Source of the DNA: a virus
Strand: one strand, 5' to 3'
IMG/VR virus record: IMGVR_UViG_3300035698_012734
Coordinates: 1 to 45,383 of that record
DNA length: 45,383 nt
Shown here: positions 18,688-33,468 of the stretch, one piece after another
How positions within the stretch are numbered: position 1 is the first letter of the stretch
Layout of the letters: every line of letters begins with the position of its first letter
Position numbers and translations under genes: made by a program
Notes under the pieces: generated by a model
Database searches by the model: none
Seen by the model: only the letters and a program-made list of their open reading frames with translations
What the model was told of the DNA's origin: nothing

Positions 18688-21600
18688 ATGGCAGATATTT
18701 ATCAAGGATGCTATTCCTGCGGCAAAAACTGTATCGAGACAGCATTTTGTTCAGAGGGGGGGGGCTACGACAACAACGAGACAGGAGGAATTTCTGTTCC
18801 GAGAAACTTTCGTGTCAAGATTACGGCCAACCCAGCCTTCTGGGGATTCAGCGGAGTACTAATAGAGGGATGGGCCCATTATGAGAATGGGTACTTCGAC
18901 TATTTCGACGGATTTGATGCCGACCACTCGGTATCCAAAAGCTGTGGCCCCATCATTACCGGGCCACTCACTAACGAGCAGCGACCAGACGTGTTCTATC
19001 GGTCAGTATACGACCCAGACACTGACACTTCGACCCACTACGGCTCCGACGGGATCGAGGACGGAGTAAATCGTGGCGGAGCGGAGATCTATCTAGTTGA
19101 TAGAATGAAGGGTTTGGTTCAGGGGGTGAGCTCCGACCGACCGTCTTGCGACACGGTAGAAGCGACTCAGGTATACAAGAAGTTCCCAGAGAATTTTGGC
19201 TTTGGTAACAAGATAAACTTTAATGAGAGTCTATACAAGAACGCTACCAGTGCTTGGCGGATGATCGACTTCTCAGGGTGTTATGATTCCACCATCAATG
19301 ACAGCGGTCAAATAGACTGCTCGGGCAATGAAAAAGATCACATAGTAAGAGACAGCCACTACCTTGAAAAGTACGAGGCGTTTAATACTAGAGTGGCCGT
19401 ATTGGACTGCACTCAGGACGGAGCCGTAGCCCCACCATACTCGGGGGGTTTTACACTCATCTCCGGACTTACAAGAGACACGGGCGTATCGTATTTGGCC
19501 TCAGTGAATCTTGAGCTATCTCCGGCATTGAAGGACGGCATGTCCCTTGTGCTTTCTACAGCCCCCCTTTCTTTTACTGGAAAATACGTCATACAAGATG
19601 TCGCCCATGGCGTTAGCACAACAGCTAACCTACTGGGTACTTGGGGTCTCGATAATTTTTCTTATAATATGACCTCTGATAATTTCTGGGTGGCCATAAA
19701 TACGCACGACCCATCTAGTTGTTGCGGTGAAGCCGCCTATGGCGTTGATTCAGATTCAAAAATAATCCCAAATGAAACAAACTACCATATCGACTTCGGT
19801 AGGGCTTTCAATAACGATAAGAATAAGATTCAATCAAATAGACTTATCGCCAATAGGGATACCTACGGTACTCCGCCGGTTCTAGTATCCTCTTCTGGAT
19901 ACCGTCAGGATAGAAGTTATCCGTCGGTCACCTCTTCTGGTACGATAGATTCCGTGTCTGGCGTTCCCGTATTTGAAAAAGATCTGCCCTACTACGGCCC
20001 GTTTTTTGAAACCGATAGATTCGATACGGAAACTAGAACCGAAAATAAGTACAATCGGGTAAAAGGAAGGAATGCTACTTGCTACTCGAAACATGCATCG
20101 CTTGAGATTTTCCCTGATTGTCTTACCCAGTACGAGGACTATAGCGAGTGCGATACCGAGACCGCCAAATTTAAAACCAATCGGCTATCCCGACTGGCTT
20201 TTGTGTATCGCGGATGCGACTTCTACGACCCCTGCGAATTTGATGAGTCCGGTAGACCATACTCGGCCCCCACTGGCATTGCCGACCTAAAAAGAGGCTT
20301 GGCCGGCCAAGAGATGTATATGTATCTCAATATGAATCAGGCCTTTGGTGGCCTGATTGCTAAATGTGCTTGTGGCTGCTCAAACCCAGTTCCCGGACAA
20401 AATCCTCCTGAGATGGTCGAGATCGCCTCGCCCGTATCTTTTCCTTGCCTGTTTAATTTCGACCTGCATCCAGAACGATATGGGTGCAACGATTCAAGAT
20501 ATCAGCTACAGAAATACAAAGAATTCGTAAGTACGATATTTGAACACGAGACATGCGACGCTATTCCAGAACTCCCGGAGTCTTGTAATGTCAGGCAGCC
20601 ATACACGACATATGGGTTCATCAGAAATCTTTGTGGTAAGGAGACCCAGAGCCGAAAGGACGTGATAACTGAAGCTTTTGCCAAATTGAAGCACGCCGGT
20701 ACCTATCGTGACACTACGCCGAATGTCGACATAGCCGAGCCTATGTATTGGAACTTCGTAGACACTGGTCCAAGTCCAGACCTTCTGGGTAGCGGGACGT
20801 GGAACGGGCAGACTACTGGTGATAATTCGATTCATACGTCTGGAGACTATCCCTACTGGGGGTTGGCCGATAATCAGGGTAGATTAGTCGCCCCTTACTT
20901 TAGACCTAAGGTTGGAGACTTTAGCTGTTGTGCTACCGGTCCAGAGATTCCGTATGTGGACTTCGATACGTCTGGCACGTTCTATAATGGCTGGCCAACT
21001 GATAATGTTCCTTTCTTAATCGAGTTAGAGTCTACAGATATCTGCGTTGGTTGTACTACCACTACCATGCCAGTTGGCAATCTGGTTCTTACCCTTAGTG
21101 GGGGCGATACAAAATACTCTCATAACAAGGGGGTTGGCGGCGGTAAGTATGGATATAATAACTGTCGTTATTCCGGTACGGCGATAGACCCTACCTATTC
21201 GTGCCTAAGCGGTATCCCCACCAGTTTCTGCGGGGCTGGTGCAGATACTCTGCATTCTCAATTCGCAACGCCTTACACGGGAAACACATGTTCTTGCATA
21301 ACGGGATCTGAGGTGACTTTATACACCAAGACCATAGGAGAAGGACTCCACGATCTTGCTGTCGGCTGGATATCCTCTGGGATAAATAGCTCCTATGTTG
21401 AGATGACCGGATGCAATGACATTACTAGCAGCTATCTGAATGTTGACTATGCCAATGGTGCCGCCGGCGGGGTTAGCGTATATGCCTCTTTTAAGTTGGC
21501 ATGTCCAGAGAATATAGACTTTCTAACGGAACCGAGCTTCCCGTTCGCTTTTTACGAGGGGGACTCTGTATCTAATCTTTGGTCATGTCGCGGAGACTCC

Positions 21601-24126
21601 TGCCCATCGACCTACCCGTCTCCCGGAAACCGCCTCTCCTTATCTAGTAAAATGTTGTTGATTGGCGATGCCAGAAAGTCAGATTTTGAAGCACTTACCG
21701 AGGCCGAAATTGAGGGTCCCTCCTTCTCCGACATCCTAACAAATGGCGTTCTGTTAGGTGACCCAATACATGCCCGTAGGAATATTCAACTATGCTCAGG
21801 TGAGAAAGTGCTGATTTATGGATGCTACGTGGGCGGTGGGTTTTACGGATGCGGAGGGTCTTGCGATTCAGAGTCGGTCTGTGTTAGCTGCTCCGGACAA
21901 GGGGTTGGGTGCAACGACTGTGGAGCCGTCGTCTCTTTTAGTGGTATCGCAACGTCTCGTATTCCGGCCCATTTCGAACTGAACCCCTGTTTCTGCCAAT
22001 GCTCCTCACCTACGCTGATGAGGATTTACGGAGTAGATAGCTCGGGCGGGTCGTTGGTGCTTGAGACGACTTACGAGAACACGGGAAACTATGACTGTAA
22101 TGGCATACCGTACTGGTATTCAATAAGCGGAGAGAATAGGGTCTCTATTCCTGTTCTACTAAACCAACTGCCCCCATTCCCACACATGGGCGAAGGTCCA
22201 TACTCCAGCACCGCTACAGACTTCTGCTCCTTTGATTCTGGTCCTAATAAAATAGCCTCCGGGATTCAATACAAGTTCTATGAGCCGAACAATGCAAACA
22301 CATGTGGTAATCTTGATCCCTACTCATGCGATAACGGTATCTGTGCCGACTCCCGATCGAATTCTGCCAACTGCGGAAACCCAATCTACACGACCGGCAA
22401 TGTGATAGATATTTCAGTAAATAAGAAGGCATGTTGGCCTGAGATCATGATAGTCAACAAGGTGGAATGTTATGGAAGCGGATACGCTCTCCATGTTTCT
22501 AGGGAGTATCATAATCACGACCGGACTTGGCAAGAGGTAAAGGCTATTGAGGGGGGTAGTGCTTGCTTCACTAAGTATTATGGGTCTTACGTCTATGACA
22601 GTGGCTGTCAGACCATACCTTACGCCGTACCTACGGACTCCGTCACCCCAGCCTTCTCTTCTGTATGCGGAGTGCACTACCCGAGTGGGGCGAACGCCAA
22701 CCAAGACTTCTTGTTTACTGGGGACTCCGTCTGGAATTACTACAACCTTTTTTACGAATCTGGGTATCCCGCAGGCTACCAGTTTGACACGGCGATTGAC
22801 GGGGTCACCCACGCAGCAATCTGTGGCCAATCGGGAGGTGGCAGTCCCGCCCTAGAGGCCATCTTTGGAACCGGCAACTATGCTGTCGAATTCGGCACGC
22901 TGGCCGTCAACGCTAAGCATAGCTGCTTACAGGACATCAGGGCGTGCGGAGCGGATTTCTTCTGCAACAAGATGTTCTTCCCTAGACGAAAATATGCAGA
23001 GGGCACGAAAGTCTCAGCCTACGGTGCTCTCTCTATGTGTACGGACAATGCCAGACCGGAATATCCAAGCTGGTATTCTGGGTATGGTAGTTTCTCTTCT
23101 TTACCTGAAATCATCAAAGGGACGAGGTCCGGTAGGATTTTAGACGCTTGTGATCCAGATAGCGTAACTATTGTTAATCAAGAGGTTGGCATTGACGACT
23201 CTATAATCTATGTAAATGACTATCTGCCACTAATTGGGGTGACTCGACAACCGTTTCGTGGCAGTTCTTGCTTAATACCTAATAGCGGGGAGTGTAACTC
23301 CGTTACCCTCCCGTACACCCACACTGATCAGACGATGACCTACTCAGTCGGCGATATGGGTTATTACACATCCATTCTTGCGAGCGGTGCGAGCAACTGT
23401 TTGTTTGATAAGTTCAAAATCTTGGTCGATGTGAATTGTTGTCCGGACAGAACAAGGAGACGAGATAATAGTCTGGAGGAGCCAACCTCCCTATCTTATA
23501 TGTTTACAGATATTCCGTCTATCTTCTGCAAGGGGTTTGTGTCAGAACCTCCTTGTGGATGTGTCGATTCAGAATGTAGCGATCCCTTATCGCGTCCGGG
23601 TAGTTGTAAGCAAGTCTACGCTCTTTACGTATACGATAAGATCACCTGTACTGGGGTCAACTACGGCGTGTTCCCACCGGATCTATACGCTGACTACGTG
23701 ATCGATTACGATGGTACGTTCCTGCAGGCGTCCGACGCCGAGGGTTATCGAGAAAGTTGCTCGGACCCAGCTACTGGGTTTACATTATACCAGACTGAAT
23801 GCCCTGAGTTCTCAGGAAAGTATTTAGAGGCGTCTTCAGCCGGATATGTGCCGACTTGGGAGTGCGGAGAAAATGTTTATAGTCTAGCTCCCGGAGATGC
23901 GAATTCTGACTGCTGCTTTTTTGCTAATACGACCCTGTGCTCGGCATTATCTTCTGGCGTTACATTCCCAAAAACACAATCGTGTTATGTTGGGCTAGAG
24001 GCCAATTTCTCTGACGATCTTTCTTCTCCCTCCGGAATATGGATGGCCGAGTGCGGATGTTCCGCTGGGGGAGACAATATATGTCTTGACGATTCTTTGA
24101 TTTACGCAGTAATTACTGAGGCTTAA
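18688..24126 (+). CDS. Giant Cys-rich tail tip protein, candidate receptor-binding protein
   Basis: A 1812-aa protein with an AGGA ribosome site. I count about 85 Cys (4.7 percent), many in CxC, CC or CxxC pairs over the whole length: CYSCGKNC near the start, CACGC near 560, a dense block CGGSCDSESVCVSCSG near 1055, PCFCQC near 1100 and CGCSAGGDNIC at the end. It lacks a signal peptide, membrane segment or catalytic motif. So many cysteines in a phage structural protein is unusual; they may form disulfides after lysis or bind metal. As the last large gene of the tail module it is the best candidate for host recognition, but this is inferred from position and size only. Confidence 0.65.
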   Translation: MADIYQGCYSCGKNCIETAFCSEGGGYDNNETGGISVPRNFRVKITANPAFWGFSGVLIEGWAHYENGYFDYFDGFDADHSVSKSCGPIITGPLTNEQRPDVFYRSVYDPDTDTSTHYGSDGIEDGVNRGGAEIYLVDRMKGLVQGVSSDRPSCDTVEATQVYKKFPENFGFGNKINFNESLYKNATSAWRMIDFSGCYDSTINDSGQIDCSGNEKDHIVRDSHYLEKYEAFNTRVAVLDCTQDGAVAPPYSGGFTLISGLTRDTGVSYLASVNLELSPALKDGMSLVLSTAPLSFTGKYVIQDVAHGVSTTANLLGTWGLDNFSYNMTSDNFWVAINTHDPSSCCGEAAYGVDSDSKIIPNETNYHIDFGRAFNNDKNKIQSNRLIANRDTYGTPPVLVSSSGYRQDRSYPSVTSSGTIDSVSGVPVFEKDLPYYGPFFETDRFDTETRTENKYNRVKGRNATCYSKHASLEIFPDCLTQYEDYSECDTETAKFKTNRLSRLAFVYRGCDFYDPCEFDESGRPYSAPTGIADLKRGLAGQEMYMYLNMNQAFGGLIAKCACGCSNPVPGQNPPEMVEIASPVSFPCLFNFDLHPERYGCNDSRYQLQKYKEFVSTIFEHETCDAIPELPESCNVRQPYTTYGFIRNLCGKETQSRKDVITEAFAKLKHAGTYRDTTPNVDIAEPMYWNFVDTGPSPDLLGSGTWNGQTTGDNSIHTSGDYPYWGLADNQGRLVAPYFRPKVGDFSCCATGPEIPYVDFDTSGTFYNGWPTDNVPFLIELESTDICVGCTTTTMPVGNLVLTLSGGDTKYSHNKGVGGGKYGYNNCRYSGTAIDPTYSCLSGIPTSFCGAGADTLHSQFATPYTGNTCSCITGSEVTLYTKTIGEGLHDLAVGWISSGINSSYVEMTGCNDITSSYLNVDYANGAAGGVSVYASFKLACPENIDFLTEPSFPFAFYEGDSVSNLWSCRGDSCPSTYPSPGNRLSLSSKMLLIGDARKSDFEALTEAEIEGPSFSDILTNGVLLGDPIHARRNIQLCSGEKVLIYGCYVGGGFYGCGGSCDSESVCVSCSGQGVGCNDCGAVVSFSGIATSRIPAHFELNPCFCQCSSPTLMRIYGVDSSGGSLVLETTYENTGNYDCNGIPYWYSISGENRVSIPVLLNQLPPFPHMGEGPYSSTATDFCSFDSGPNKIASGIQYKFYEPNNANTCGNLDPYSCDNGICADSRSNSANCGNPIYTTGNVIDISVNKKACWPEIMIVNKVECYGSGYALHVSREYHNHDRTWQEVKAIEGGSACFTKYYGSYVYDSGCQTIPYAVPTDSVTPAFSSVCGVHYPSGANANQDFLFTGDSVWNYYNLFYESGYPAGYQFDTAIDGVTHAAICGQSGGGSPALEAIFGTGNYAVEFGTLAVNAKHSCLQDIRACGADFFCNKMFFPRRKYAEGTKVSAYGALSMCTDNARPEYPSWYSGYGSFSSLPEIIKGTRSGRILDACDPDSVTIVNQEVGIDDSIIYVNDYLPLIGVTRQPFRGSSCLIPNSGECNSVTLPYTHTDQTMTYSVGDMGYYTSILASGASNCLFDKFKILVDVNCCPDRTRRRDNSLEEPTSLSYMFTDIPSIFCKGFVSEPPCGCVDSECSDPLSRPGSCKQVYALYVYDKITCTGVNYGVFPPDLYADYVIDYDGTFLQASDAEGYRESCSDPATGFTLYQTECPEFSGKYLEASSAGYVPTWECGENVYSLAPGDANSDCCFFANTTLCSALSSGVTFPKTQSCYVGLEANFSDDLSSPSGIWMAECGCSAGGDNICLDDSLIYAVITEA
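19570..19579 (+). repeat. Dispersed motif, copy 4
   Basis: Exact copy in the Cys-rich tail gene, preceded by CCCCTTT. It codes SFTG here, a different phase from copies 3 and 5. Confidence 0.8.
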
Positions 24127-24128
24127 CG

Positions 24129-24506
24129 ATGAACAAAACAGGATGTGAATGCCCTTTGGCAGGACTATGTAATAGGCACGGCGTTGAAAAGACTGCACAC
24201 CTGCATAAGCTATGCCAAAATCATGCTGGCTATTTTAAAATGTGGGAGGAATGTCGCGGCCCGCTGCAGACCGATTGCGGGGAGAAGCTTCCGAGCCTAC
24301 TTAAACAGGCGGCTAATGTTGCGAAAGCTGTGGTGACCCACGTGGCAACCGGAATGAGTAACGCGACTCCAGAAGAAAAGAACAGGCGACTTAGTATCTG
24401 TGGCGGTTGCCCATTTTTCAAAGAGGGGCGATGCACAAAATGCGGCTGTTTCCTAGAAGTTAAAACAGGATTTTCCTCTAGCAAGTGCCCAATCGGAAAA
24501 TGGTAA
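24129..24506 (+). CDS. Small Cys-rich zinc-binding protein, DUF6171-like
   Basis: A 125-aa protein with two metal-binding-like parts. Residues 6-21 hold C-E-C-x5-C-x-R-H-x-V-E-K (CECPLAGLCNRHGVEK). The C-terminal 35 residues hold C-x2-C-x7-C-x2-C-x-C-F-L followed by C-P-I-G-K-W, a pattern frequent in short phage and bacterial proteins. A central helix of about 35 residues links them. The start has GAGG upstream. It overlaps the UDP-galactopyranose mutase gene by 7 bases, so the two are probably translated together. A role in the glycan pathway is inferred from this coupling. Confidence 0.7.
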   Translation: MNKTGCECPLAGLCNRHGVEKTAHLHKLCQNHAGYFKMWEECRGPLQTDCGEKLPSLLKQAANVAKAVVTHVATGMSNATPEEKNRRLSICGGCPFFKEGRCTKCGCFLEVKTGFSSSKCPIGKW

Positions 24507-25612
24507 ACTACGACTACGTAATAGTGGGTGCGGGACCTTTCGGCTGTGCCTTTGCGAGAACCGTCACCGACTCAGGGGCTAAATGCTTAGTGGTCGACAA
24601 GAGAGAGCACATAGCCGGCAACTGTTACACAGAAAGCCGAGAGGGTACTGACGTACATATGTATGGGCCACACATTTTCCATACGTCAAGTGATCCGGTC
24701 TGGGAGTTTGTTAACCAGTTCGGAAAATTCAATAATTTCGTGTATAGACCAAAGGCAATAAATAATGGCCGTCTTTATTCCTTCCCTATCAACCTAATGA
24801 CTCTCAATCAAATGTTTGGGGTTAAAACTCCGGAGGATGCCGAAGCTTTATTAAGATCCAAGAGGCTCCACATAGAAGCCCCGGCGAATTTTGAGGAGGC
24901 CTGCTTGGCCTCGGTTGGCGAGGAAATATATAGAACTTTCTTTTACTGGTACACTAAAAAGAAGTGGAGTATGGAGCCTAGAGATCTACCGGCTACCCTA
25001 CTGACCAGAGTGCCAGTTAGAAATACTTTTAACGATAACTATTTCAATGATCCACATCAGGGCATACCGATAGACGGCTATACGTCGCTCTTTAAGAACA
25101 TGCTGGAAGGAATCGATGTGGAGCTAGGAGTAGACTATTTTAAGCACAGGGACAGGCTAGACGGCCTATGCAGAAGACTTGTGTACACAGGTCCGATCGA
25201 TAGATTCTACGAGTTTGAATTTGGGCATCTAGGATGGGTGGGTCTTGAATTTGAGCACACCAGTAAAAGAAAGGATCATCAGGGTGCGGCAGTCGTAAAC
25301 TATACGGACGAGACCCCCTACCTGAGATCTACAGAGCATGCCCACTTTTCAATGAAGGATTTCCCTCCCGTGTCTATCGTCACACTAGAGAGGTCTTCTG
25401 CAAACGGGGAGGCATGCTACCCAATCCCTATAAGCGAAAATAGGCTCTTGCACAATAAGTACAAGAGCCTAAAAAGTAGTAAGTATATTTTCGGCGGAAG
25501 GTTGGCCAATTATGTTTACCTGAACATGGATCAGGTGATTGCGTCAGCCATCAATACCGCTAAAAGTCGTATGTTAGATACCATCCATTTTTCATCTCCT
25601 CATTTGATATGA
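24500..25612 (+). CDS. glf: UDP-galactopyranose mutase
   Basis: This flavoenzyme converts UDP-galactopyranose to UDP-galactofuranose in the cytoplasm. I chose the ATG at 24500 (370 aa) because it gives the usual N-terminus MVNYDYVIVGAGPFG; a GTG at 24485 would add five residues. The FAD-binding G-x-G-x-x-G lies at residues 10-15, with VDKREHIAGN at about 35-44 and the YGPHIFHTS signature near 56-64. The length is normal. Segments DDTPYLRSTEH-like (ETPYLRSTEHAHF) and the C-terminal YVYLNMDQV are also typical of the family. In phages the enzyme is uncommon; here it faces a glycosyltransferase cassette on the other strand. Its 3' end overlaps the convergent gene by 53 bases, and it carries two exact dispersed motifs. 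Confidence 0.93.
   Translation: MVNYDYVIVGAGPFGCAFARTVTDSGAKCLVVDKREHIAGNCYTESREGTDVHMYGPHIFHTSSDPVWEFVNQFGKFNNFVYRPKAINNGRLYSFPINLMTLNQMFGVKTPEDAEALLRSKRLHIEAPANFEEACLASVGEEIYRTFFYWYTKKKWSMEPRDLPATLLTRVPVRNTFNDNYFNDPHQGIPIDGYTSLFKNMLEGIDVELGVDYFKHRDRLDGLCRRLVYTGPIDRFYEFEFGHLGWVGLEFEHTSKRKDHQGAAVVNYTDETPYLRSTEHAHFSMKDFPPVSIVTLERSSANGEACYPIPISENRLLHNKYKSLKSSKYIFGGRLANYVYLNMDQVIASAINTAKSRMLDTIHFSSPHLI
24939..24948 (+). repeat. Dispersed motif, copy 5
   Basis: Exact copy in glf, coding FFYW in the third phase. Confidence 0.8.
25261..25270 (-). repeat. Dispersed motif, copy 6
   Basis: Exact copy in glf, opposite to copy 5 and 313 bases from it. It codes SKR in the glf frame. Confidence 0.8.
25441..25471 (-). 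terminator. Candidate terminator of the minus-strand operon, inside glf
   Basis: A perfect 10-bp inverted repeat (TAGGCTCTTG / CAAGAGCCTA) with an 11-base loop. Read on the minus strand the stem is followed by TTTTC, so it could end transcription about 90 bases after the last minus-strand gene. On the plus strand it is followed by an A-run, so it would not stop glf mRNA. The short T-run makes it a moderate candidate. Confidence 0.5.
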
Positions 25613-26429
25613 TGTGCAGGTCAGGACGAGAGGCCATGTAATACATGATCAGAAACTCTATCTCTACGGCTATCTTTCTTTTTTCGTGAAAAGAACCTAC
25701 TCTTCTTGGCTTGACCACTAGGTCGTAAAAACTAATGAAGTTTCGTATGTGTGTTTTTACGAACTCACAGATTTCCGACATTACGCTTTTGTGACAGATG
25801 AACTGATTAGATATCGGTGCTATATTACAGATTTCGTCTATCCCAATATGTCTCACAAAATACTCTACTGAATCCTCACTCGGGTTTTTAAGTCGGGCTA
25901 TGGCGTTCCAGTCGAACACCATTGTGTTTGCACACAAGACAACTTTCGGATCTCCAAAGAGCAGGCCAAGATTGGCCCACTCGTGGAGGTTGTCAATGTT
26001 GTTCGTGTTTGAGTATTTATGATTCCAAGAAGCAGTCACCATTCCGGTATACTCAGATTCAAACAGTTGAGGACAAAAGAACGCTCTTATTTCAGCGAAT
26101 CTATTATCTTGGAAGTCGGAGAACTCGCCTAAATCAAGATCCTGTAAAAGATAGGGACATAGATACTCTCTTTTACTGATGTTCTCGAACTGTCTTTCGT
26201 CGTGGCCGAGTAGGTTGATTTTGACTAGGTCAATATCAATCTTTCCGGGTATTAGTTTATCTAGCTTGGCTTTGCTTCCTCGCTCGACAGACTCCACGTC
26301 CTCAACTTGTCTGATCTGGTATTCATTCACGCATCTTAAAAATCTAGGAAGATCTTTCTCTACGCAGTGACGCTGACAATAGCCCGGCCTTGAGCACTCG
26401 CACCTATCGCCTTGTCTATTTAAGATCAT
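25560..26429 (-). CDS. Putative glycosyltransferase-like protein with N-terminal Cys-His module
   Basis: A 289-aa protein, the last gene of the minus-strand run. Residues 10-25 read CECSRPGYCQRHCVEK, the same C-x-C-x5-C-x-R-H-x-V-E-K pattern as in the small protein encoded at 24129 on the other strand. The rest (FENISKREYLCPYLLQDLD, YTGMVTASWNHKYS, and a middle with VLCANTMVFDW) is vaguely like DUF4422-type capsular glycosyltransferases, but no clear D-x-D motif is seen. It overlaps the gene upstream by 14 bases and converges on glf. A role in glycan transfer is inferred from similarity of pattern and neighbours. Confidence 0.5.
   Translation of the reverse strand: MILNRQGDRCECSRPGYCQRHCVEKDLPRFLRCVNEYQIRQVEDVESVERGSKAKLDKLIPGKIDIDLVKINLLGHDERQFENISKREYLCPYLLQDLDLGEFSDFQDNRFAEIRAFFCPQLFESEYTGMVTASWNHKYSNTNNIDNLHEWANLGLLFGDPKVVLCANTMVFDWNAIARLKNPSEDSVEYFVRHIGIDEICNIAPISNQFICHKSVMSEICEFVKTHIRNFISFYDLVVKPRRVGSFHEKRKIAVEIEFLIMYYMASRPDLHIISNEEMKNGWYLTYDF
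26169..26178 (+). repeat. Dispersed motif, copy 7
   Basis: Exact copy, antisense to the glycosyltransferase-like gene 25560-26429. Confidence 0.8.
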
Positions 26430-26634
26430 TGGAAGCCGAGATTCCTAAGGTCACGCACTCTAGATAGTTTTTTTCTAGACTAATGAAGTGTACATGAGCC
26501 CCGTCGTTAAAGATAATAACGGGCTTCTCCCAGTTCATGCCTTCAAACGTAGAGTCGTCAGCCTCTTCTTCTGTTATGTTTGAAAACACGACTTTCTCAT
26601 CTTCTTTTTTGAGTAGCAGGCGAAAGTATTTCAT
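26416..26634 (-). CDS. Small hypothetical protein
   Basis: A 72-aa acidic protein with alternating strands and no Cys motif. It starts 4 bases inside the end of the upstream ssDNA-binding-like gene and overlaps the downstream gene by 14 bases, so it appears translationally coupled. I do not recognise a family. Confidence 0.55.
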   Translation of the reverse strand: MKYFRLLLKKEDEKVVFSNITEEEADDSTFEGMNWEKPVIIFNDGAHVHFISLEKNYLECVTLGISASNDLK

Positions 26635-27233
26635 TGCTCTAGATAGTCCTCAAGTTCCAACGCGGCGAATTGTTTAGCGTCATCCACCAAATCATCAGGA
26701 GCTTCTACGAAGCTGAATGATGGTGTAAAGTATTTGACCGATCCTTTCTTCTGTTCCTCTCCGGGAACGCCTGTCACCAGATAAGTATAGACGTTAAACA
26801 TCTTCTCCTGATTGACGAACTCCATCCAGTCACGTAGGGAGGCTCCCGAGAACTGGATATTAACCGGAACAAATACCCCTTCGATATCTGCTAGAGCGAA
26901 CACGTTACTGACGAACTTACCACCCAGTGCCGCAATCTGACTTTTGATCTCCTTATAGACCCCCTTCACAAGGTCGACCCTGACCTTCTTTCCGGTCTTG
27001 ATGGATAGGGGTTCAGACAAATCCTTGACCATATTAGAGTAGATGCTCGACTCATGTTCATCGCTCCATCCACCAACTGATGAGCGGACGTCAACACAGA
27101 TGAACGAGAGAGAGGGGATCTGAATACTGGCCGACTGTGCAGCGTCCCAGTATCGCCAACTGCCGTGCTTAAACTCGATGTAGTACTTAACTGGTGACTT
27201 GATACGCGACTGTCGTTCGTCTAAAATAGACAT
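26631..27233 (-). CDS. Probable phage single-stranded DNA-binding protein
   Basis: A 200-aa protein with ribosome site TTGGAG. The layout (YYIEFKHGSWRYWDA, IPSLSFICVDVRSSVGGW, SVKYFTPSFSFVE and an acidic C-terminus DDLVDDAKQFAALELEDYLEQ) resembles a phage protein group often found beside Rad52- or RecT-like annealing proteins. An OB-like beta core followed by an acidic tail is typical for ssDNA-binding proteins, which bind replication or recombination intermediates. The adjacent gene (27237-27860) encodes such an annealing-type protein. The assignment is inferred and moderate. Confidence 0.45.
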   Translation of the reverse strand: MSILDERQSRIKSPVKYYIEFKHGSWRYWDAAQSASIQIPSLSFICVDVRSSVGGWSDEHESSIYSNMVKDLSEPLSIKTGKKVRVDLVKGVYKEIKSQIAALGGKFVSNVFALADIEGVFVPVNIQFSGASLRDWMEFVNQEKMFNVYTYLVTGVPGEEQKKGSVKYFTPSFSFVEAPDDLVDDAKQFAALELEDYLEQ

Positions 27234-27236
27234 AAG

Positions 27237-27860
27237 TTATCTCCAAGAAATATAGGGTTGAATAGTATCTTTGATTTTGTCCCCATCGTTTTTGAGGACG
27301 TTCAGTTGCTTAATCATCTTTGTCGCAATATCTTTTGTTACTTCATAAATACTCCTATAATCTCCTGTTCCACTACTGATAAATTTAAGGACATCAATGT
27401 CCAGCTTTTTACATCGAGAGTCAATGAAGTCGAGCTGTTGATCACTAATCATTTGGACCTTCTGAGCGGGCAGTTCTTCGGCTGCTACTCCTCGCAGTCC
27501 TAATGCCTTACGTAGGCATCGCCCCTCTGCTCTCGTGCACGCTGTCGCCGGTGCGAATCCTACAAACAAAGCGTCCGTATTACCATGCCAAACATCAGCA
27601 ACGTCTCCGAAAGTTAGTAAATCACCATCCTTCGTCTTGATTACGACTTCGTAAACCACCGTGGCCTCCCGCTCTGCGGGAAAAACAGTGACTGGCCGAC
27701 TACACACGACCTGTCCTAAGAGGATTCCTACTATTCGTCTAAGTCCGGGCACTGTAGGATTTCCATCGATCAGCTCCCTAGGGTCAAACATAGAGATAAC
27801 GTAATCATGCCAACCAATATCTTCCCGTCCTACAGGACTAGACTCTTCTAGACTCTCCAT
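27237..27860 (-). CDS. Putative single-strand annealing protein (Rad52-like)
   Basis: A 207-aa protein behind a strong ribosome site (GAGG). Residues 15-125 have the form seen in phage Rad52/ERF-type proteins: GWHDYVISMFDP, NPTVPGLRRIVGILLG, a strand region, then CTRAEGRCLRKALGL at about 108-122. The C-terminal 65 residues look like the small helical domain that often follows (ISDQQLDFIDSRCKKL ... IATKMIKQLN). Such proteins bind and anneal complementary strands during replication-coupled recombination. It lies next to a probable ssDNA-binding protein. Family membership is inferred. Confidence 0.5.
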   Translation of the reverse strand: MESLEESSPVGREDIGWHDYVISMFDPRELIDGNPTVPGLRRIVGILLGQVVCSRPVTVFPAEREATVVYEVVIKTKDGDLLTFGDVADVWHGNTDALFVGFAPATACTRAEGRCLRKALGLRGVAAEELPAQKVQMISDQQLDFIDSRCKKLDIDVLKFISSGTGDYRSIYEVTKDIATKMIKQLNVLKNDGDKIKDTIQPYISWR

Positions 27861-28617
27861 CCTTTACCTCAATTTCAATTAATCGTTTACCTACGCCGGG
27901 CGGGTTTTCGTAAATTACTGCCAACTCCTCCTTAATCGCGTCATACATTGCCCTCAGCCTCTTCTGAGATACTGATTTGTCTAGATGACGCACTCTAAGC
28001 ATTATGTAGCCGCTAGCCAAAACGAGTCCCTGTTTCTTAGTATCCGCAGAGACTTGCCTTGCCAGTTTCTCGTCCCCCCAAATAGGCAGAAAATGAGAGG
28101 GTCCATCTATCTCAATGGCGGTTCTAAGACTAGGAATATACATATCCACTTCGAGTTTCTCGTCGGGGATAAGATCCTTCATATGTACTGTGACGTCGAA
28201 ACCGTCTTTTGTCAAGTGTTCTAGAACATACTTTTCGGACTTAGATCCATTCCTACCAGACTCTCTAACCGCTTGGGCTCCCTGCTCTCTAAACCTATCC
28301 TTCGCGTCCCTTGACATACCGTCCCAATTGGCCCTCGCCTTATTAGAGAAATCCTCCTTCTGCTTGTCGGTTTTGTCGCTCCAAGTCTTAGAGACACTAT
28401 TACTGATTTTATCGAGCGTCTCTTGAGACTGTTTCTTACCCTTAGTTGGATGAGAAACCTCTCCGCTATCCAGTAAGCCTTTTTGGGCCTCAGAGTACGT
28501 CCGCATTTTCGTGCCAGAACTTTTCAGCAGTGTTCTGACTCGATGAATACTAAGACCTGTTTCTCTTGAGATCTTCATACAGCTAAGGCCGTTCTCGTAT
28601 AGCTCTACTACGTTCAT
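27838..28617 (-). CDS. Homing-type endonuclease with HTH and PD-(D/E)XK/Vsr-like domain
   Basis: A 259-aa protein in three parts. Residues about 1-35 form an HTH (MKISRETGLSIHRVRTLLKSS). Residues about 58-80 match NUMOD3-type DNA-binding modules (KGKKQSQETLDKIS). Residues about 125-225 form a nuclease domain: SEKYVLEHLTKDGFDV, LEVDMYIPSLRTAIEIDGPSH and a late Lys-rich helix with MLRVRH. The E...D...EID arrangement fits Vsr/DUF559-like enzymes used by free-standing homing endonucleases. It sits between a glycan-cassette gene and the annealing protein. It may have inserted there, but both flanking junctions are neat (4- and 23-base overlaps). Confidence 0.65.
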   Translation of the reverse strand: MNVVELYENGLSCMKISRETGLSIHRVRTLLKSSGTKMRTYSEAQKGLLDSGEVSHPTKGKKQSQETLDKISNSVSKTWSDKTDKQKEDFSNKARANWDGMSRDAKDRFREQGAQAVRESGRNGSKSEKYVLEHLTKDGFDVTVHMKDLIPDEKLEVDMYIPSLRTAIEIDGPSHFLPIWGDEKLARQVSADTKKQGLVLASGYIMLRVRHLDKSVSQKRLRAMYDAIKEELAVIYENPPGVGKRLIEIEVKDGESRRV

Positions 28618-29045
28618 AATTGACTCATATCTAAGTATTGTTGAATCCTCGACTCGATCCCAAAGATTTTTAGAATAGTATCGTGATGTTCTACAGACCG
28701 TGTGATTAGGTTAACTTCTGAGAAGATATTAAAAACCTCATCAAACGAGTAGGCGGACTGTAAGAAACTAAGGTCATGTAAAAAGAGGTACTTATTGGCA
28801 TTCACCGGGGCGATGCCTAAAATGGTGCCCGTCCCCAAGCATGTCGCTATGATGTTGCACCCATAGGAATTATTCAGCTCGCTGATATTTACTACCGAGG
28901 TCTCTATGTTCATGAGCCTATTTGAGATATTTAGAGAGATCACGGAAATCTCACCGAGCCCCTCCGACAACTCATTTACGTGCTTGAGGATATGGTAGTT
29001 CTTATCCTCGAACGAAGTGTTGTCTAGTACGACTACTGATCGCAT
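28614..29045 (-). CDS. Short glycosyltransferase-like protein (single Rossmann-type half)
   Basis: A 143-aa protein. It starts with alternating strands and helices (SVVVLDNTSF, EISVISLNIS), then NIIATCLGTGTILGIAPV and KYLFLHDLSFLQ. The last segment resembles the 'hhhhHD' strand at the end of the N-terminal domain of GT-B glycosyltransferases. No C-terminal sugar-nucleotide domain follows. It may be a half-domain partner or an inactive remnant. It overlaps the CgeB-like gene upstream by 13 bases and belongs to the same cassette. No catalytic residues can be named. Confidence 0.4.
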   Translation of the reverse strand: MRSVVVLDNTSFEDKNYHILKHVNELSEGLGEISVISLNISNRLMNIETSVVNISELNNSYGCNIIATCLGTGTILGIAPVNANKYLFLHDLSFLQSAYSFDEVFNIFSEVNLITRSVEHHDTILKIFGIESRIQQYLDMSQL

Positions 29046-29722
29046 GGTTTATTGCTCCTAACTTTTTTAGCCACAGCCGAATGTCCAAGACCTTCTAGGA
29101 TATCGGCCACCCGATCAAAATTAGTATGGTTCTTGGTAATCGTGGCCCTGCTAAATTTCTTCGGGAACAACTTACCATCAGCGGCTTTAGCGGCATCCAG
29201 TAAAAAAGAAGGCATATCTTTATACTTCATTGGATTGCCATCAGCCATAATAATATCGAGTTCACGGAAGCCCGGATCGCCCGCAGGAATCGGGCAGGCT
29301 TTAGCGTTATGATAAATCGAGCACATCTTATCGTGGCTCACATAGCCGCAGTAGGAACTCAAGCCTGACGGACGAGAAAAGAAGTGCTTGACATTATAGC
29401 CAGACTGGGTAAGTTTGGGCAATGCGTTTCCAAAGTCTGCGATATCTCCAACGTAAGAAAAGTCGCTCACATACCTACTTTCTTTTACTGGCTCCGCGTA
29501 CTGGAGAAGATCTATGAACGCCGGTAACTCATTAACTTTAGATAGGTCAAAACCGTCTGGTGCTCTCTGCATATCATCTGTGAATACGATGTCGGGAGCA
29601 AACGAGTCCAGTCCCTCCGCACTAAACTCCCTCATCACGCCGATCTCCATAAGTCCGCGAAGGGGGTTGATAAGGGACTGTATCCTGAAGTCATTACGGT
29701 TGCTTATAACTAGCATTTTCAT
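29033..29722 (-). CDS. CgeB-like glycosyltransferase-type protein
   Basis: A 229-aa protein whose N-terminal 150 residues follow the pattern of CgeB/YkvP-like proteins: a first strand MKMLVISNRNDF, SRYVSDFSYVGDI, then GYVSHDKMCSIYHNAKACP, PGFRELDIIMADGNPM. In this family the motif with 'SYVGDI' and the late 'REL/EAxxxG' segment belongs to a GT-B sugar-nucleotide-binding domain. The protein is shorter than usual and probably represents the C-terminal GT-B half. It overlaps the nucleotidyltransferase gene by 29 bases. It carries two exact copies of the dispersed motif in opposite orientation (29198-29207, 29481-29490). Substrate unknown. Confidence 0.5.
   Translation of the reverse strand: MKMLVISNRNDFRIQSLINPLRGLMEIGVMREFSAEGLDSFAPDIVFTDDMQRAPDGFDLSKVNELPAFIDLLQYAEPVKESRYVSDFSYVGDIADFGNALPKLTQSGYNVKHFFSRPSGLSSYCGYVSHDKMCSIYHNAKACPIPAGDPGFRELDIIMADGNPMKYKDMPSFLLDAAKAADGKLFPKKFSRATITKNHTNFDRVADILEGLGHSAVAKKVRSNKPCDQ
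29198..29207 (-). repeat. Dispersed motif, copy 8
   Basis: Exact copy, sense in the CgeB-like gene; faces copy 9 in the same gene. Confidence 0.8.
29481..29490 (+). repeat. Dispersed motif, copy 9
   Basis: Exact copy, antisense in the CgeB-like gene, 274 bases after copy 8. Confidence 0.8.
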
Positions 29723-30350
29723 AGTTTTTGTTTATCTCTATCATTTTAGCACGCTCAGATACGTAGGGAATAAGTCCGAAAGATTCGTTGAGCATGTTCA
29801 AGTATTCAAACGTACACCTATTCACCTTGAAGCCATTTATTACTTTGACGGCTTCATCATAATCGTCTCTAGCGATATAGGCGATCTGGCCCCACTTCTT
29901 AGGTAATCCATAGGACAAGTTTAGGACGGTGTCACCATAGGATAAGCCAACTCCCTTTAGGTTCTTATGGTGCGTATCTACCATGACTCCGGACCGACCT
30001 CGCTTTATCTTCAGGGCTGCCTCGTTGAAGATGACATCCCCATGAATGATGTAGAAGCTAGTCTTCCTTAGAGAGTTGATTCCTATTCTAAGGCTGTCCG
30101 TCTGGCTATTCAGATCGTATAGTGGATTGTAGACGATCCGAACATCATGCTTCTTAGAGACTAGATGTTCGGTAACCAGCTTCGATTTGAACCCGAGCAC
30201 AACTGTAATGTCTGCACTCTTATCAAAATCCAGAATTGTCCTAATCTGAAAATCAATAATTTTCTCACTCCCGTAGGGCAGTATCGATTTTGAGCCTTTC
30301 GTCTGCATGGAGCGGCCAATTCCTGCTGCCATCAGAACATATGCCGTCAT
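29694..30350 (-). CDS. Sugar or choline-phosphate nucleotidyltransferase-like protein
   Basis: A 218-aa protein beginning TAYVLMAAGIGRSMQ, with a glycine-rich A-A-G-x-G-R motif (residues 8-13) and a Lys in SKSILPYG, as in MobA/LicC/IspD-type NTP transferases. A second motif, HGDVIFNEAAL (near 100), contains the Asp that binds metal. It probably makes an activated precursor such as CDP- or NDP-linked sugar or alcohol for the glycosyltransferases nearby. The start (ATG, TAAATG junction) is directly after the upstream stop. Substrate cannot be read from sequence. Confidence 0.7.
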   Translation of the reverse strand: MTAYVLMAAGIGRSMQTKGSKSILPYGSEKIIDFQIRTILDFDKSADITVVLGFKSKLVTEHLVSKKHDVRIVYNPLYDLNSQTDSLRIGINSLRKTSFYIIHGDVIFNEAALKIKRGRSGVMVDTHHKNLKGVGLSYGDTVLNLSYGLPKKWGQIAYIARDDYDEAVKVINGFKVNRCTFEYLNMLNESFGLIPYVSERAKMIEINKNYENASYKQP

Positions 30351-30686
30351 TTAGGAAATCCTGAAGAGTGGTTCTGGGATATAGGAAAAACACGATGTCG
30401 ACATCGCTGCACTCAAATCTCCAGAATTTTCGATAAAGGTCTTGGTCCTCATAATAGATGCCGGTACCCGCTTAGGAGAGGGGACATAGTTCCCCTCTCT
30501 ATCGTAAAAGTCTGAATGGTATCCTTCGATGGTGGTGTCCGACTGCAACCACTTGGTCGGGTCTGCAACCAAATCGGCGTTCGTCAGATCTACCACAAAA
30601 TCGTAGTGGCTATATTGAGACAGGTCAGACACCACCTCACAAAAATCGCTAAGTTTAGGACTCTCTGAATAGCCGATAATTTTCAT
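30351..30686 (-). CDS. Hypothetical protein in the glycan cassette
   Basis: A 111-aa protein behind a GAGGA ribosome site, starting within the end of the upstream gene (32-base overlap). It begins with a Rossmann-like strand (KIIGYSESP), then DFVVDLTNADLV, but no family is recognised. It lies between a GT-A-like gene and a nucleotidyltransferase, so a function in the same pathway is inferred. Confidence 0.5.
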   Translation of the reverse strand: MKIIGYSESPKLSDFCEVVSDLSQYSHYDFVVDLTNADLVADPTKWLQSDTTIEGYHSDFYDREGNYVPSPKRVPASIMRTKTFIENSGDLSAAMSTSCFSYIPEPLFRIS

Positions 30687-31401
30687 ATAAATCCTCTATA
30701 GGAACCGACAGTCCGTCCTGATTAAAAGTGGCCACTTTTTCGGACATAGACATGCCCTTATAGCCATCTAAGTGCTTATAGATTATAGCCGGATACGCCT
30801 TAACTTCCCCGGTGATTTCTACAAATTTCTTCGCCTCGGAGACGGATGCGTGGTTGATTGCACACAACATCTCTTTTTTTACTGGAGTGCCAGAGTCGAC
30901 AAAAATCACCCATCCGTTTTTGCATCGACGAAAAGATTCGTCGTACATAGAGTCCTCGTATAGCTTATCGACCATATACACACAGGAGAGACGGGATTCC
31001 GGAATGATCTCTGAGGCCACCCCAATAATTTCACTATATTTATGATGTTCGTGACAGACAACCACCTTCGGTAGTCTGACAGTGTCAACCAAATTAATAT
31101 CTCGTAGTGTTTTCTCTAGATCTCCTAGTGACGCCCCCGCTTTGTGTATGACTACAAATGTCGACCGAATAAACGTCTCTTCGAATAAGAGAGATCTCGT
31201 CCCTCCAGACTCACGCCACGTTTCTTCTCGTCGATGCATGCAGACCCTGTCTACTTTACTGTAGGTCATCTCGTCCTCGACATAGTCAAGTACCTCATCC
31301 CCAACAGATTTGAATTTTTTCAACATGCCGATTTCGCAACCCACCTGATGAAAGCCATCCATAAGTTTGAAAGTACAGTTTTTACAAGTTGTAGAAATCA
31401 T
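30655..31401 (-). CDS. Cys-cluster plus GT-A-like glycosyltransferase
   Basis: A 248-aa protein. I use the ATG at 31401 in the ATGA overlap; a TTG six bases upstream is weaker. Residues about 6-55 have four spaced cysteines (CKNCTF ... VGCEIG ... VCMHRR), a likely zinc- or iron-sulfur-binding lead also seen in related environmental phage proteins. The remaining residues look like a GT-A fold: FVVIHKAG, RLPKVVVCHEHHKY, then NGWVIFVDSGTPVKKEML in the place of the usual DxD strand, here V-D-S-G. It is part of the glycan cassette. Activity is uncertain because the DxD motif is not canonical. Confidence 0.5.
   Translation of the reverse strand: MISTTCKNCTFKLMDGFHQVGCEIGMLKKFKSVGDEVLDYVEDEMTYSKVDRVCMHRREETWRESGGTRSLLFEETFIRSTFVVIHKAGASLGDLEKTLRDINLVDTVRLPKVVVCHEHHKYSEIIGVASEIIPESRLSCVYMVDKLYEDSMYDESFRRCKNGWVIFVDSGTPVKKEMLCAINHASVSEAKKFVEITGEVKAYPAIIYKHLDGYKGMSMSEKVATFNQDGLSVPIEDLYENYRLFRES
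30875..30884 (+). repeat. Dispersed motif, copy 10
   Basis: Exact copy with a seven-T run, antisense in the GT-A-like gene. Confidence 0.8.
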
Positions 31402-33038
31402 AGCCAACTCTCGTCTTTGAGAAGTGAGGGGTTCTGTCTCGCAGACTCCCAGAAATTAAACGACTTTTTCTTACCTTCGAGCATTCGGGTTACGTGCTCT
31501 TTAGAGAATGGCTGAGACTGCTCCCTATTGAAGTAGGACATCTCGGAATAGAAATAACCACAAGAGTTGTTTTTGAAGGTTTTGAAATTCAAATCTCTCA
31601 AGAGGCAAGAGGACTCGAATGAGTTTTTCGCGTCCGAGTAGGGGATGTAGGTGTCAATAGACCAATCCAAAAACTGCTTGTTGTTTACAAATTTTGGCAT
31701 GTCCGGAACTTGACCAACCTGTCGAATAGGAGAGTCCCATTTTCCATACGAGCAATCGTTGATCACGCGACTCCAATTCTCAGATGCCTTATCCCAATCG
31801 AACTCGGCCAAGCACGACTTGCGAGCCTCTGAAGACAGGATATCTCGGTCTTCACCTGACAGGCTAAAGAAGTGTTTGAAATAGTCCACCGCTGCATCAA
31901 TATCGGGAATGGCTCGGTAACACCCGGTCTCCATCTCTAAGGTTTTACATTTCAGTGGTACCGGATACCCCTTCAGCTTACGAACCACATCCGACATCGC
32001 AGAATAGTCGGTAGACATAACTGGGACGCCACATGCAGCAGCCTCCGGCTGGCTAAATCCTAAACCTTCCGAATTTGCACACTGATAGTAAAGGTCGAAT
32101 AGGTTGTAGATATCCGCCAATTGTTTTGTGGAGACACCCGTAGTTACGTTCGAAGGCTTACAGGAAAACTCCCGGCACTTTTTACACTGCCTCAACGAAT
32201 CAGAAAATTTCCCAATAGATACATCCTTACATGACTCACAACAATACGTAAACAGTACGCGAGATGAGATGTTATTATTCTTCAGTAAAAGAGGAATATC
32301 CCATCCGTTGTCGGGGTATGACGTATGACAATATAGGTAAGTGTCCTTCTCGTCATTCTCGTGAATGTATTTAGAGAATGACTCAAACAGTTCCGGAAAC
32401 AGCTTCCGTCTCTGGTTACGCATAACCGTGCCAATAATCTTCCACTCGGGATTGATACCCATGCTTATCCGATGGGCTGTTTTTGGCAAAGGACGAAATT
32501 CTGGAGACGTGCCCGGAGGTGCCGCACCCCAATAATTTACCTTATGGCCCCCCTGTTCTTTTACTAGATTGCCCGCCCAGTCGGTCAGGGTTAAGAAATA
32601 GTCGGTAGATGCAAAATGGTCAATCCATTCAGAGTTCTGAGGCATCGCGTCAACCGTCGCCATCCACGCCCAAGAGAACAGTTTCCTAAAAGGCGAATGT
32701 CTCACAAAGGAACACATCCACGGATCTCTCTGGTCGATAACGCAGTCTGGTTTAAAATCTAAAGCGGCTCGCTCGAATCGCCAAGCTCCAAACTGGTTGA
32801 CCGGATTTGAAGAATAAAACTGCTTCGCCTCATCGGTATCACTTGGAGACACCGCCACAGGATAATTCTTCCAAGGGATTGACTTACGTCTAGGATCTTC
32901 TTCGGCTCCATATATTGAATACTCGGCAACGTCATGACCAAGATCCAAAAGTCGCGGAATGATCTCTTTGCCATATACAGCATATCCAGTATTAAGATAA
33001 GTGGCCTCAGTAAAGAAAAGAACCTTCTTTTTACGCAT
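31398..33038 (-). CDS. GT4-family glycosyltransferase with an internal zinc ribbon
   Basis: A 546-aa GT-B protein. The N-terminal domain starts KKVLFFTEATYLNTGYAVYG (a family strand with the acceptor loop). A four-cysteine segment lies near residues 263-292 (CCESCK ... QCKKCREFSC), inside the nucleotide-binding half just before the helix leading to the E-x7-E motif. The latter is at about 324-332 (EGLGFSQPEAAACGVPV), which binds the sugar nucleotide. A C-terminal extension of about 130 residues follows. The start ATG overlaps the sigma-factor stop (ATGCGTAA). An embedded zinc ribbon is unusual in this family. Acceptor unknown. Confidence 0.85.
   Translation of the reverse strand: MRKKKVLFFTEATYLNTGYAVYGKEIIPRLLDLGHDVAEYSIYGAEEDPRRKSIPWKNYPVAVSPSDTDEAKQFYSSNPVNQFGAWRFERAALDFKPDCVIDQRDPWMCSFVRHSPFRKLFSWAWMATVDAMPQNSEWIDHFASTDYFLTLTDWAGNLVKEQGGHKVNYWGAAPPGTSPEFRPLPKTAHRISMGINPEWKIIGTVMRNQRRKLFPELFESFSKYIHENDEKDTYLYCHTSYPDNGWDIPLLLKNNNISSRVLFTYCCESCKDVSIGKFSDSLRQCKKCREFSCKPSNVTTGVSTKQLADIYNLFDLYYQCANSEGLGFSQPEAAACGVPVMSTDYSAMSDVVRKLKGYPVPLKCKTLEMETGCYRAIPDIDAAVDYFKHFFSLSGEDRDILSSEARKSCLAEFDWDKASENWSRVINDCSYGKWDSPIRQVGQVPDMPKFVNNKQFLDWSIDTYIPYSDAKNSFESSCLLRDLNFKTFKNNSCGYFYSEMSYFNREQSQPFSKEHVTRMLEGKKKSFNFWESARQNPSLLKDESWL
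32283..32292 (-). repeat. Dispersed motif, copy 11
   Basis: Exact copy, sense in the GT4 gene; a relaxed opposite copy lies at 32557-32566. Confidence 0.8.
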
Positions 33039-33468
33039 TAATGCGAATCTTTCTTTTTATCCGCCGAGATGCCGACGTAATGATTTCAATGGGGATCTCT
33101 AGGATATCAGAGATTTCTGAGTGAGAGTATTTTGCGAACACTAATTCTATTATGGACCTGTCAAGATCCGACATCGTCGGGAGATAATCGGGAAGATGGA
33201 ATCTCTCAGGCTCCCCCCGATCGAACGGGGCTTTAGACTCTCTAAACATTCGCTTGTGCTTGCAGATAAACGCGGTCATTCCCCGTCTGACACAAATCGT
33301 CAAATACGTAGATGGCTTAGCTATTTCCGAATCAAAACTATTCTCCACTCTCACCGCCGTCATTAGCCCGACTTGGATTAGATCTTCGAGACAGTAAAAT
33401 CTATTTTGCTTGTATAGCTTTCTTGCTATACCAGCAATCATAGCTTCAAATTTCATCGCTAGAGACAT
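33031..33468 (-). CDS. Sigma-70-like transcription factor
   Basis: A 145-aa protein resembling small alternative sigma factors. Residues about 25-70 show region 2 (YCLEDLIQVGLMTAVRVENSFD, STYLTICVRRGMTAFI). Residues about 98-142 show region 4 with an HTH (LDRSIIELVFAKYSHSEISD then IPIEIITSASRRIKRKI). The linking part is short. It has a GAAGGA-type ribosome site and overlaps the DnaQ-like gene by 23 bases. It would redirect host RNA polymerase to phage promoters, perhaps for late genes. There is no sign of a frameshift. Confidence 0.75.
   Translation of the reverse strand: MSLAMKFEAMIAGIARKLYKQNRFYCLEDLIQVGLMTAVRVENSFDSEIAKPSTYLTICVRRGMTAFICKHKRMFRESKAPFDRGEPERFHLPDYLPTMSDLDRSIIELVFAKYSHSEISDILEIPIEIITSASRRIKRKIRINA

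Follow-up and report, generated by a model that had tools for sequence, protein, structure and literature searches.

A predicted phage glycan-assembly cassette with a conserved core and an exchangeable galactofuranose unit

Genes for UDP-galactopyranose mutase (glf) are already known from phages, and the question of what they are for is raised again by positions 24,129 to 33,038 of IMG/VR virus record IMGVR_UViG_3300035698_012734, analysed here over 45,383 bases (the window); the window has no end repeats and therefore is probably a fragment. A first, sequence-only reading had placed glf there among putative glycosyltransferase (GT) genes and proposed that UDP-galactofuranose is made by the phage, which would decorate a glycan, more probably on its own virion. 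The present analysis links glf with a candidate galactofuranosyltransferase and with a conserved set of core glycan genes, so that the reason for its presence in phages becomes testable on named genes. There seems to be an even chance that the locus is a phage glycan-assembly cassette with a conserved core, an exchangeable galactofuranose unit, and a phage protein, probably of the virion, as acceptor. In the proposed mechanism, soluble core enzymes, encoded together with replication and sigma genes, would build the glycan; Glf would convert UDP-galactopyranose to UDP-galactofuranose, a reaction established for its family; and a DUF4422/GT111-like protein, as its family, fold, and adjacency to glf suggest, would move galactofuranose onto the growing glycan. 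The phage protein acceptor is named by elimination alone. If it belongs to the virion, the glycan that these phages build on their particles would be modular and exchangeable.

The conserved core in related phages

A search with the GT4 protein gave 566 tblastn-confirmed loci in IMG/VR, 80 of which were kept, and two in genome contigs, both contigs of metagenome-assembled genomes (MAGs). Open reading frames (ORFs) from 85 GT4-anchored loci were clustered; GT4 itself defined this set, and the counts overstate independence because of near-copy loci. Only weak matches to GT4 were seen in isolated phages, and by these comparisons the phages form a large uncultured group in which no close isolated member was found.

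The gene order is conserved: a polymerase III alpha-like gene, a single-stranded DNA-binding protein (SSB)-like gene, and a sigma gene are followed by GT4, a GT-A-like gene, a nucleotidyltransferase gene, and a CgeB-type gene. The first two labels, taken from reading the sequences directly, are presumptive. Among 63 loci that continue for 6 kb or more downstream, the GT-A-like gene is present in 62, and the nucleotidyltransferase and CgeB-type genes in all 63. The sigma gene overlaps GT4 in 54 of the 57 loci carrying both. At about 42–59% GT4 identity the core is retained in nearly every sufficiently long locus with the EX7E motif intact, and the genes downstream of it vary (epimerase, GT2, GT25, FkbM methyltransferase, and others). 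By gene content, GT4, the GT-A-like protein, the nucleotidyltransferase, and the CgeB-type protein are the core, and the pair of glf and the DUF4422-like gene is an exchangeable add-on.

The GT4 enzyme named in the sequence-only reading matches PF00534 (Glycos_transf_1) with 32.1 bits (cut-off 26.4); E324 and E332 of EX7E are invariant, and a PDB profile search gave no useful match. The GT-A-like protein was modelled with AlphaFold (AF2) at a predicted local distance difference test (pLDDT) score of 96, and Foldseek matched the model to TarP, PcManGT, and other GT-A proteins in PDB (E=2.5e-6, prob 1.00, template modelling (TM) score 0.44–0.51) and to GT-A enzymes among viral proteins. The fold assigned to it earlier therefore stands, but DXD is lost: the two positions hold D in 10 and G in 29 of 49 sequences. 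Four cysteines, in contrast, are kept in 49/49 sequences, and this protein may be a non-catalytic partner. Its Cys4 motif had no match in the isolated-phage search.

The nucleotidyltransferase, also recognised earlier, scores 30.5 bits with PF12804 (NTP_transf_3; cut-off 27) and matches LicC 1jyk at 6e-10. Its AGxGxR loop is present in the window and the close group. In the subclade of L018, L019, L022, L024, and L025 the loop is lost (alignment A7), and the protein of this subclade may be no longer active. A scan of IMG/VR anchored on the nucleotidyltransferase gave one locus only. The CgeB-like protein of the window has no PF13524 match of its own; its full length aligns with a 347-aa family that bears PF13524 (hhalign 99.0%, E=6e-18) and occupies the corresponding position in other phages, so that this label is borne out by profile alone.

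The glf and DUF4422-like pair

The Glf protein matches PF03275 with 193.6 bits (cut-off 26.3) and also PHROG 9677, and its profile matches the E. coli mutase 1i8t with E=4e-147. Residues R175, R281, W161, Y186, Y312, and Y345, which we take to be catalytic or substrate-binding positions of the mutase family, are invariant in the alignment; the FAD GxGxxG motif is in place and the glf reading frames are intact. Judged from its sequence, the enzyme is an intact UDP-galactopyranose mutase, and the proposed synthesis of UDP-galactofuranose by the phage is well supported. The ORF call began glf with GTG at 24485, and ATG at 24500 is the likely start. There the stop of the upstream gene overlaps the glf start in ATGGTAA (24500–24506), and the coupling of glf to a plus-strand partner, described earlier as zinc-binding and here a Cys-rich protein with DUF6171, is confirmed. 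A Glf-anchored scan of IMG/VR gave no loci. The glf products of Rhizobium phages (Pootjesviridae), Agrobacterium phage Atu_ph04, Lactobacillus phage ATCCB, and Streptococcus phages are about 39–45% identical; in the Rhizobium phages glf has an amidase gene as neighbour and tail-fibre genes close by, and no GT is annotated there.

The DUF4422/GT111-like protein faces Glf from the minus strand. Its best sibling matches PF14393 at 2.5e-4 with 21.4 bits, under the curated cut-off of 25. WbbM (6u4b) was the sole PDB fold match with E<0.001 in Foldseek (E=4e-4, prob 1.00, TM score 0.41). The N-terminal domain of Klebsiella WbbM is a DUF4422 that acts as a UDP-Galf transferase (family GT111), and in Kingella a DUF4422 protein and a mutase (PamA/PamB) are encoded at one locus (PMC12269835); both systems thus have, as here, a DUF4422-type protein encoded with a mutase. 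Unlike WbbM, the version in the window is phage-encoded, has an extra N-terminal Cys module, shows no detectable sequence match to WbbM in PDB, and is accompanied by no export genes.

The two genes also travel together. Nine of 11 glf-bearing GT4-anchored loci carry the DUF4422-like gene as well, and this co-occurrence in 9 of 85 loci has a hypergeometric p of ~1e-10, ignoring relatedness. A separate scan with the DUF4422-like alignment reached partly the same contigs and partly new ones, and 17 loci with the gene were examined. In 13 of these, glf is present in the examined DNA. The genes touch or overlap in ten (L127, L131, L132, L137, L138, L141, L142, L143, L144, and L146), in both orders, DUF4422-like gene first in some and glf first in others; in three of the L006 type both lie on one strand with two small genes between them. 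Loci L136 and L145 stop at the contig edge. No relatives of the DUF4422-like protein were found among 50,697 phage records. Because of the DUF4422 family, the fold match, and the repeated adjacency to glf, the protein is probably a galactofuranosyltransferase, short of a proven GT111 member, and the two genes probably form an exchangeable pair that makes and transfers galactofuranose. Glf identity does not follow that of GT4: L006 and L029 share 77% in GT4 but 52% in Glf, and L042 and L018 45% in GT4 but 59% in Glf. Therefore glf appears to have its own history, and the pair to move between lineages.

A four-cysteine module, CxCx3GxCx14C, is common to the first 40–50 residues of the DUF4422-like and the Cys-rich DUF6171 proteins (26286–26429, minus strand, and 24129–24272, plus strand). 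The module profile A12, built partly from the same contigs, has matches in 31 of 38 related contigs, and CxCx3GxCx(14-16)C precedes GT8, GT8+GT4, GT8+phosphoribosyltransferase, phosphoribosyltransferase, and methyltransferase-like domains as well as DUF6171. In G007 the module, 69% identical to that of L029, stands in the matching location in front of an enzyme of phosphoribosyltransferase type. Two module probes, run against the 50,697 phage records with E values up to 1 allowed, matched nothing. It is a speculative and rather unlikely idea that the module is an addressing tag which directs sugar-modifying enzymes, each replaceable by another, to a single partner or acceptor; were it true, a phage would alter what it attaches by exchanging the enzyme while the tag stays the same. 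One alternative reading to such docking is a nucleic-acid-binding zinc knuckle. Through the shared module, in any case, the acceptor and additional members could be sought.

The acceptor of the glycan

Decoration of a glycan by the phage, as first proposed, is well supported by the predicted enzymes. The virion as its acceptor is still the best guess, reached by elimination, but the argument offered for it, that glf lies directly after the tail genes, fails as a general one. In the window the tail strand carries glf, coupled to the Cys-rich gene, whereas in the glf-bearing L006–L012 group, L023, and L029 glf shares the cassette strand with the GT genes; in L042, L068, and L098 it is elsewhere, upstream or far off. 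Wherever a relative was found to have both the Cys-rich gene and the tail gene, the two adjoin, and in L019, L024, L025, and L028 the Cys-rich gene is on the cassette strand directly beside the tail gene. Since the junction genes switch strand, position says little about the acceptor.

A protein acceptor is favoured because no base hydroxymethylase, flippase, or membrane-bound GT was found. A comparable proposal exists for mycobacteriophages, where, as Freeman 2023 is cited in PMC12619734, phage GTs are proposed to act on virion proteins. The set described here differs in being larger, with donor synthesis, in belonging to uncultured phages, and in being known from genes alone.

Modification of the host surface is possible but doubtful. 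In that case the soluble enzymes would extend a lipid-linked glycan of the host (O-antigen or similar), the product would be exported by the host, and the changed receptor would block superinfection. The gene content (GT4, CgeB, LicC-like protein, Glf, and the epimerase and methyltransferases of relatives) resembles a cell-surface polysaccharide locus, a constant core with variable decorations agrees with it, and the fold match WbbM makes lipopolysaccharide O-antigen. Against this, the phage would depend wholly on host export, GtrA and Wzx were found on 0 of 38 contigs, and transmembrane-like ORFs number only 2 of 794 in the cassettes. Because GtrA and Wzx are missing there and membrane ORFs are almost absent, a surface change of the Gtr/Wzx type is, by these searches, unlikely.

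Glycosylation of DNA is quite improbable. Here the cassette would put galactofuranose-containing glycans on modified bases and so block restriction. The GT genes adjoin polymerase, SSB, and sigma genes, an arrangement comparable to that of RB69, which has arabinosyl-hydroxymethylcytosine (hmC) DNA and candidate genes for UDP-arabinose donor synthesis beside its polymerase (PMC6024577). The unusual sugar is a further likeness; RB69, however, makes hmC, and no hydroxymethylase-fold protein was seen here. A thymidylate-synthase-fold protein (base hydroxymethylase) was found in none of 37 related contigs (2.97 Mb), with the controls working and the contigs incomplete, nor in the window annotations, and for this reason the T4/RB69 route is predicted to be unlikely. 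A set of GTs as large as this one is moreover unusual for DNA. A deoxynucleoside monophosphate (dNMP) kinase gene in the window agrees with a DNA acceptor, as does Lactobacillus phage ATCCB (L088), in which thymidylate synthase, beta-glucosyltransferase, and glf genes stand in a row, unlike in the window. This row is itself a candidate for galactofuranosylated phage DNA. A literature search on arabinosyl-hmC with a mutase gave no match. The search for Tet/JBP proteins was negative but had no positive control, and it was not counted.

That nothing is decorated, with glf and the GT-like genes as passengers or acting in host metabolism, is very improbable: it would account for the lost DXD of the GT-A-like protein and the lost loop in one nucleotidyltransferase subclade, but not for a core and a GT4 motif so widely kept, nor for intact glf frames.

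Several observations weigh against the main proposal, a galactofuranose-adding cassette that acts on a phage protein. The cassette sits with the replication genes, as do the candidate UDP-arabinose genes of RB69, which fits a DNA acceptor, and a lipid-linked product could be exported by a host flippase. The label of the DUF4422-like protein, proposed in the sequence-only reading, is supported by the sub-cut-off sibling match and by the WbbM fold, but the protein of the window has no Pfam match and does not reach the DUF4422 cut-off; its model is of medium confidence only (pLDDT 69.5), and PDB profile searches with its family miss WbbM and gave no useful match. Loci L139 and L140 have the DUF4422-like gene without glf in the examined DNA. 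Finally, all contigs are fragments or of uncertain completeness, and the 85 loci include many close copies.

Layout of the window and the other genes

The plus-strand genes of the window, with the tape measure and tail genes, among them that of an 1812-aa tail protein at 18688–24126, reach 25612, and the minus-strand genes run from 45167 down to 25560 and include those for ribonucleotide reductase, PhoH, helicase, primase, dNMP kinase, exonuclease, and sigma. The last plus gene and the first minus gene overlap tail to tail by 53 bases at the junction, and the facing arms had been correctly placed and oriented from the start. The genes of the region are listed in Table 1.

Table 1. Genes of the cassette region with their positions in the window
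Feature	Positions	Strand	Basis
Cys-rich protein, 125 aa, N-terminal CxCx3GxCx14C and C-terminal DUF6171	24129..24506	+	PF19668 33.7 bits, cut-off 27; profile A12
glf, UDP-galactopyranose mutase	24500..25612	+	PF03275; 1i8t profile match
DUF4422/GT111-like probable galactofuranosyltransferase, N-terminal Cys module	25560..26429	-	sibling PF14393; WbbM 6u4b fold; glf adjacency
Small conserved protein, 72 aa, no assigned function	26416..26634	-	cluster 24, 19 loci
phrog_6706 protein, not recognisably glycan	26631..27233	-	PHROG
Conserved protein, alignment A9, not recognisably glycan	27237..27860	-	no Pfam family
Endonuclease-like protein, not a glycan gene	27838..28617	-	homing/HNH PHROGs, phrog_559 2e-13; sub-threshold NUMOD3 and helix-turn-helix
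Earlier 'GT-B half', 143 aa; GT identity not supported	28614..29045	-	no GT match in Pfam, PDB, or four GT-B alignments
Core gene 4: shortened CgeB-type GT-B protein	29033..29722	-	hhalign to PF13524-bearing family
Core gene 3: LicC/MobA-like nucleotidyltransferase, AGxGR and HGD motifs	29694..30350	-	PF12804; 1jyk; alignment
Small protein, 111 aa, no assigned function	30351..30686	-	cluster 32, 12 loci
Core gene 2: GT-A-fold protein, N-terminal Cys4 motif, DXD lost	30655..31407	-	AF2 and Foldseek
Core gene 1: GT4 glycosyltransferase, 546 aa, EX7E intact	31398..33038	-	PF00534; phrog_2170
Sigma-70-like factor, gene overlaps GT4 by 8 bases	33031..33468	-	PF04542

Not all genes of the run belong to the glycan set. 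The four at 26416–28617, passed over in the first description, are not recognisably glycan genes, one being endonuclease-like and three without assignment; the protein of 27237–27860 matched none of the known families against which it was checked. The protein first called a GT-B half was rejected as such, as it has no GT match in Pfam, in PDB, or against four GT-B alignments and no profile similarity to GT-B proteins; a match to EsaI over 65 residues was taken as chance. The endonuclease-like gene keeps its position across 30 related loci (cluster 18) and thus behaves, by its placement, like a resident of the locus and not like an insertion newly made by homing.

A terminator-like strong stem of 13 pairs lies within glf at 25441–25471 on the minus strand, positioned to end the leftward cassette transcript; terminator-like sites in the region are no commoner than in shuffled sequence.

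Of 38 related contigs, 18 carry DUF1501 genes, with as many as three on one contig (e.g., G019:C1:9712-10863, G035, G021). The domain is common in Planctomycetota and Verrucomicrobiota, and these genes may hint at hosts from the two phyla; one relative, L084, sits in a Verrucomicrobiales MAG.

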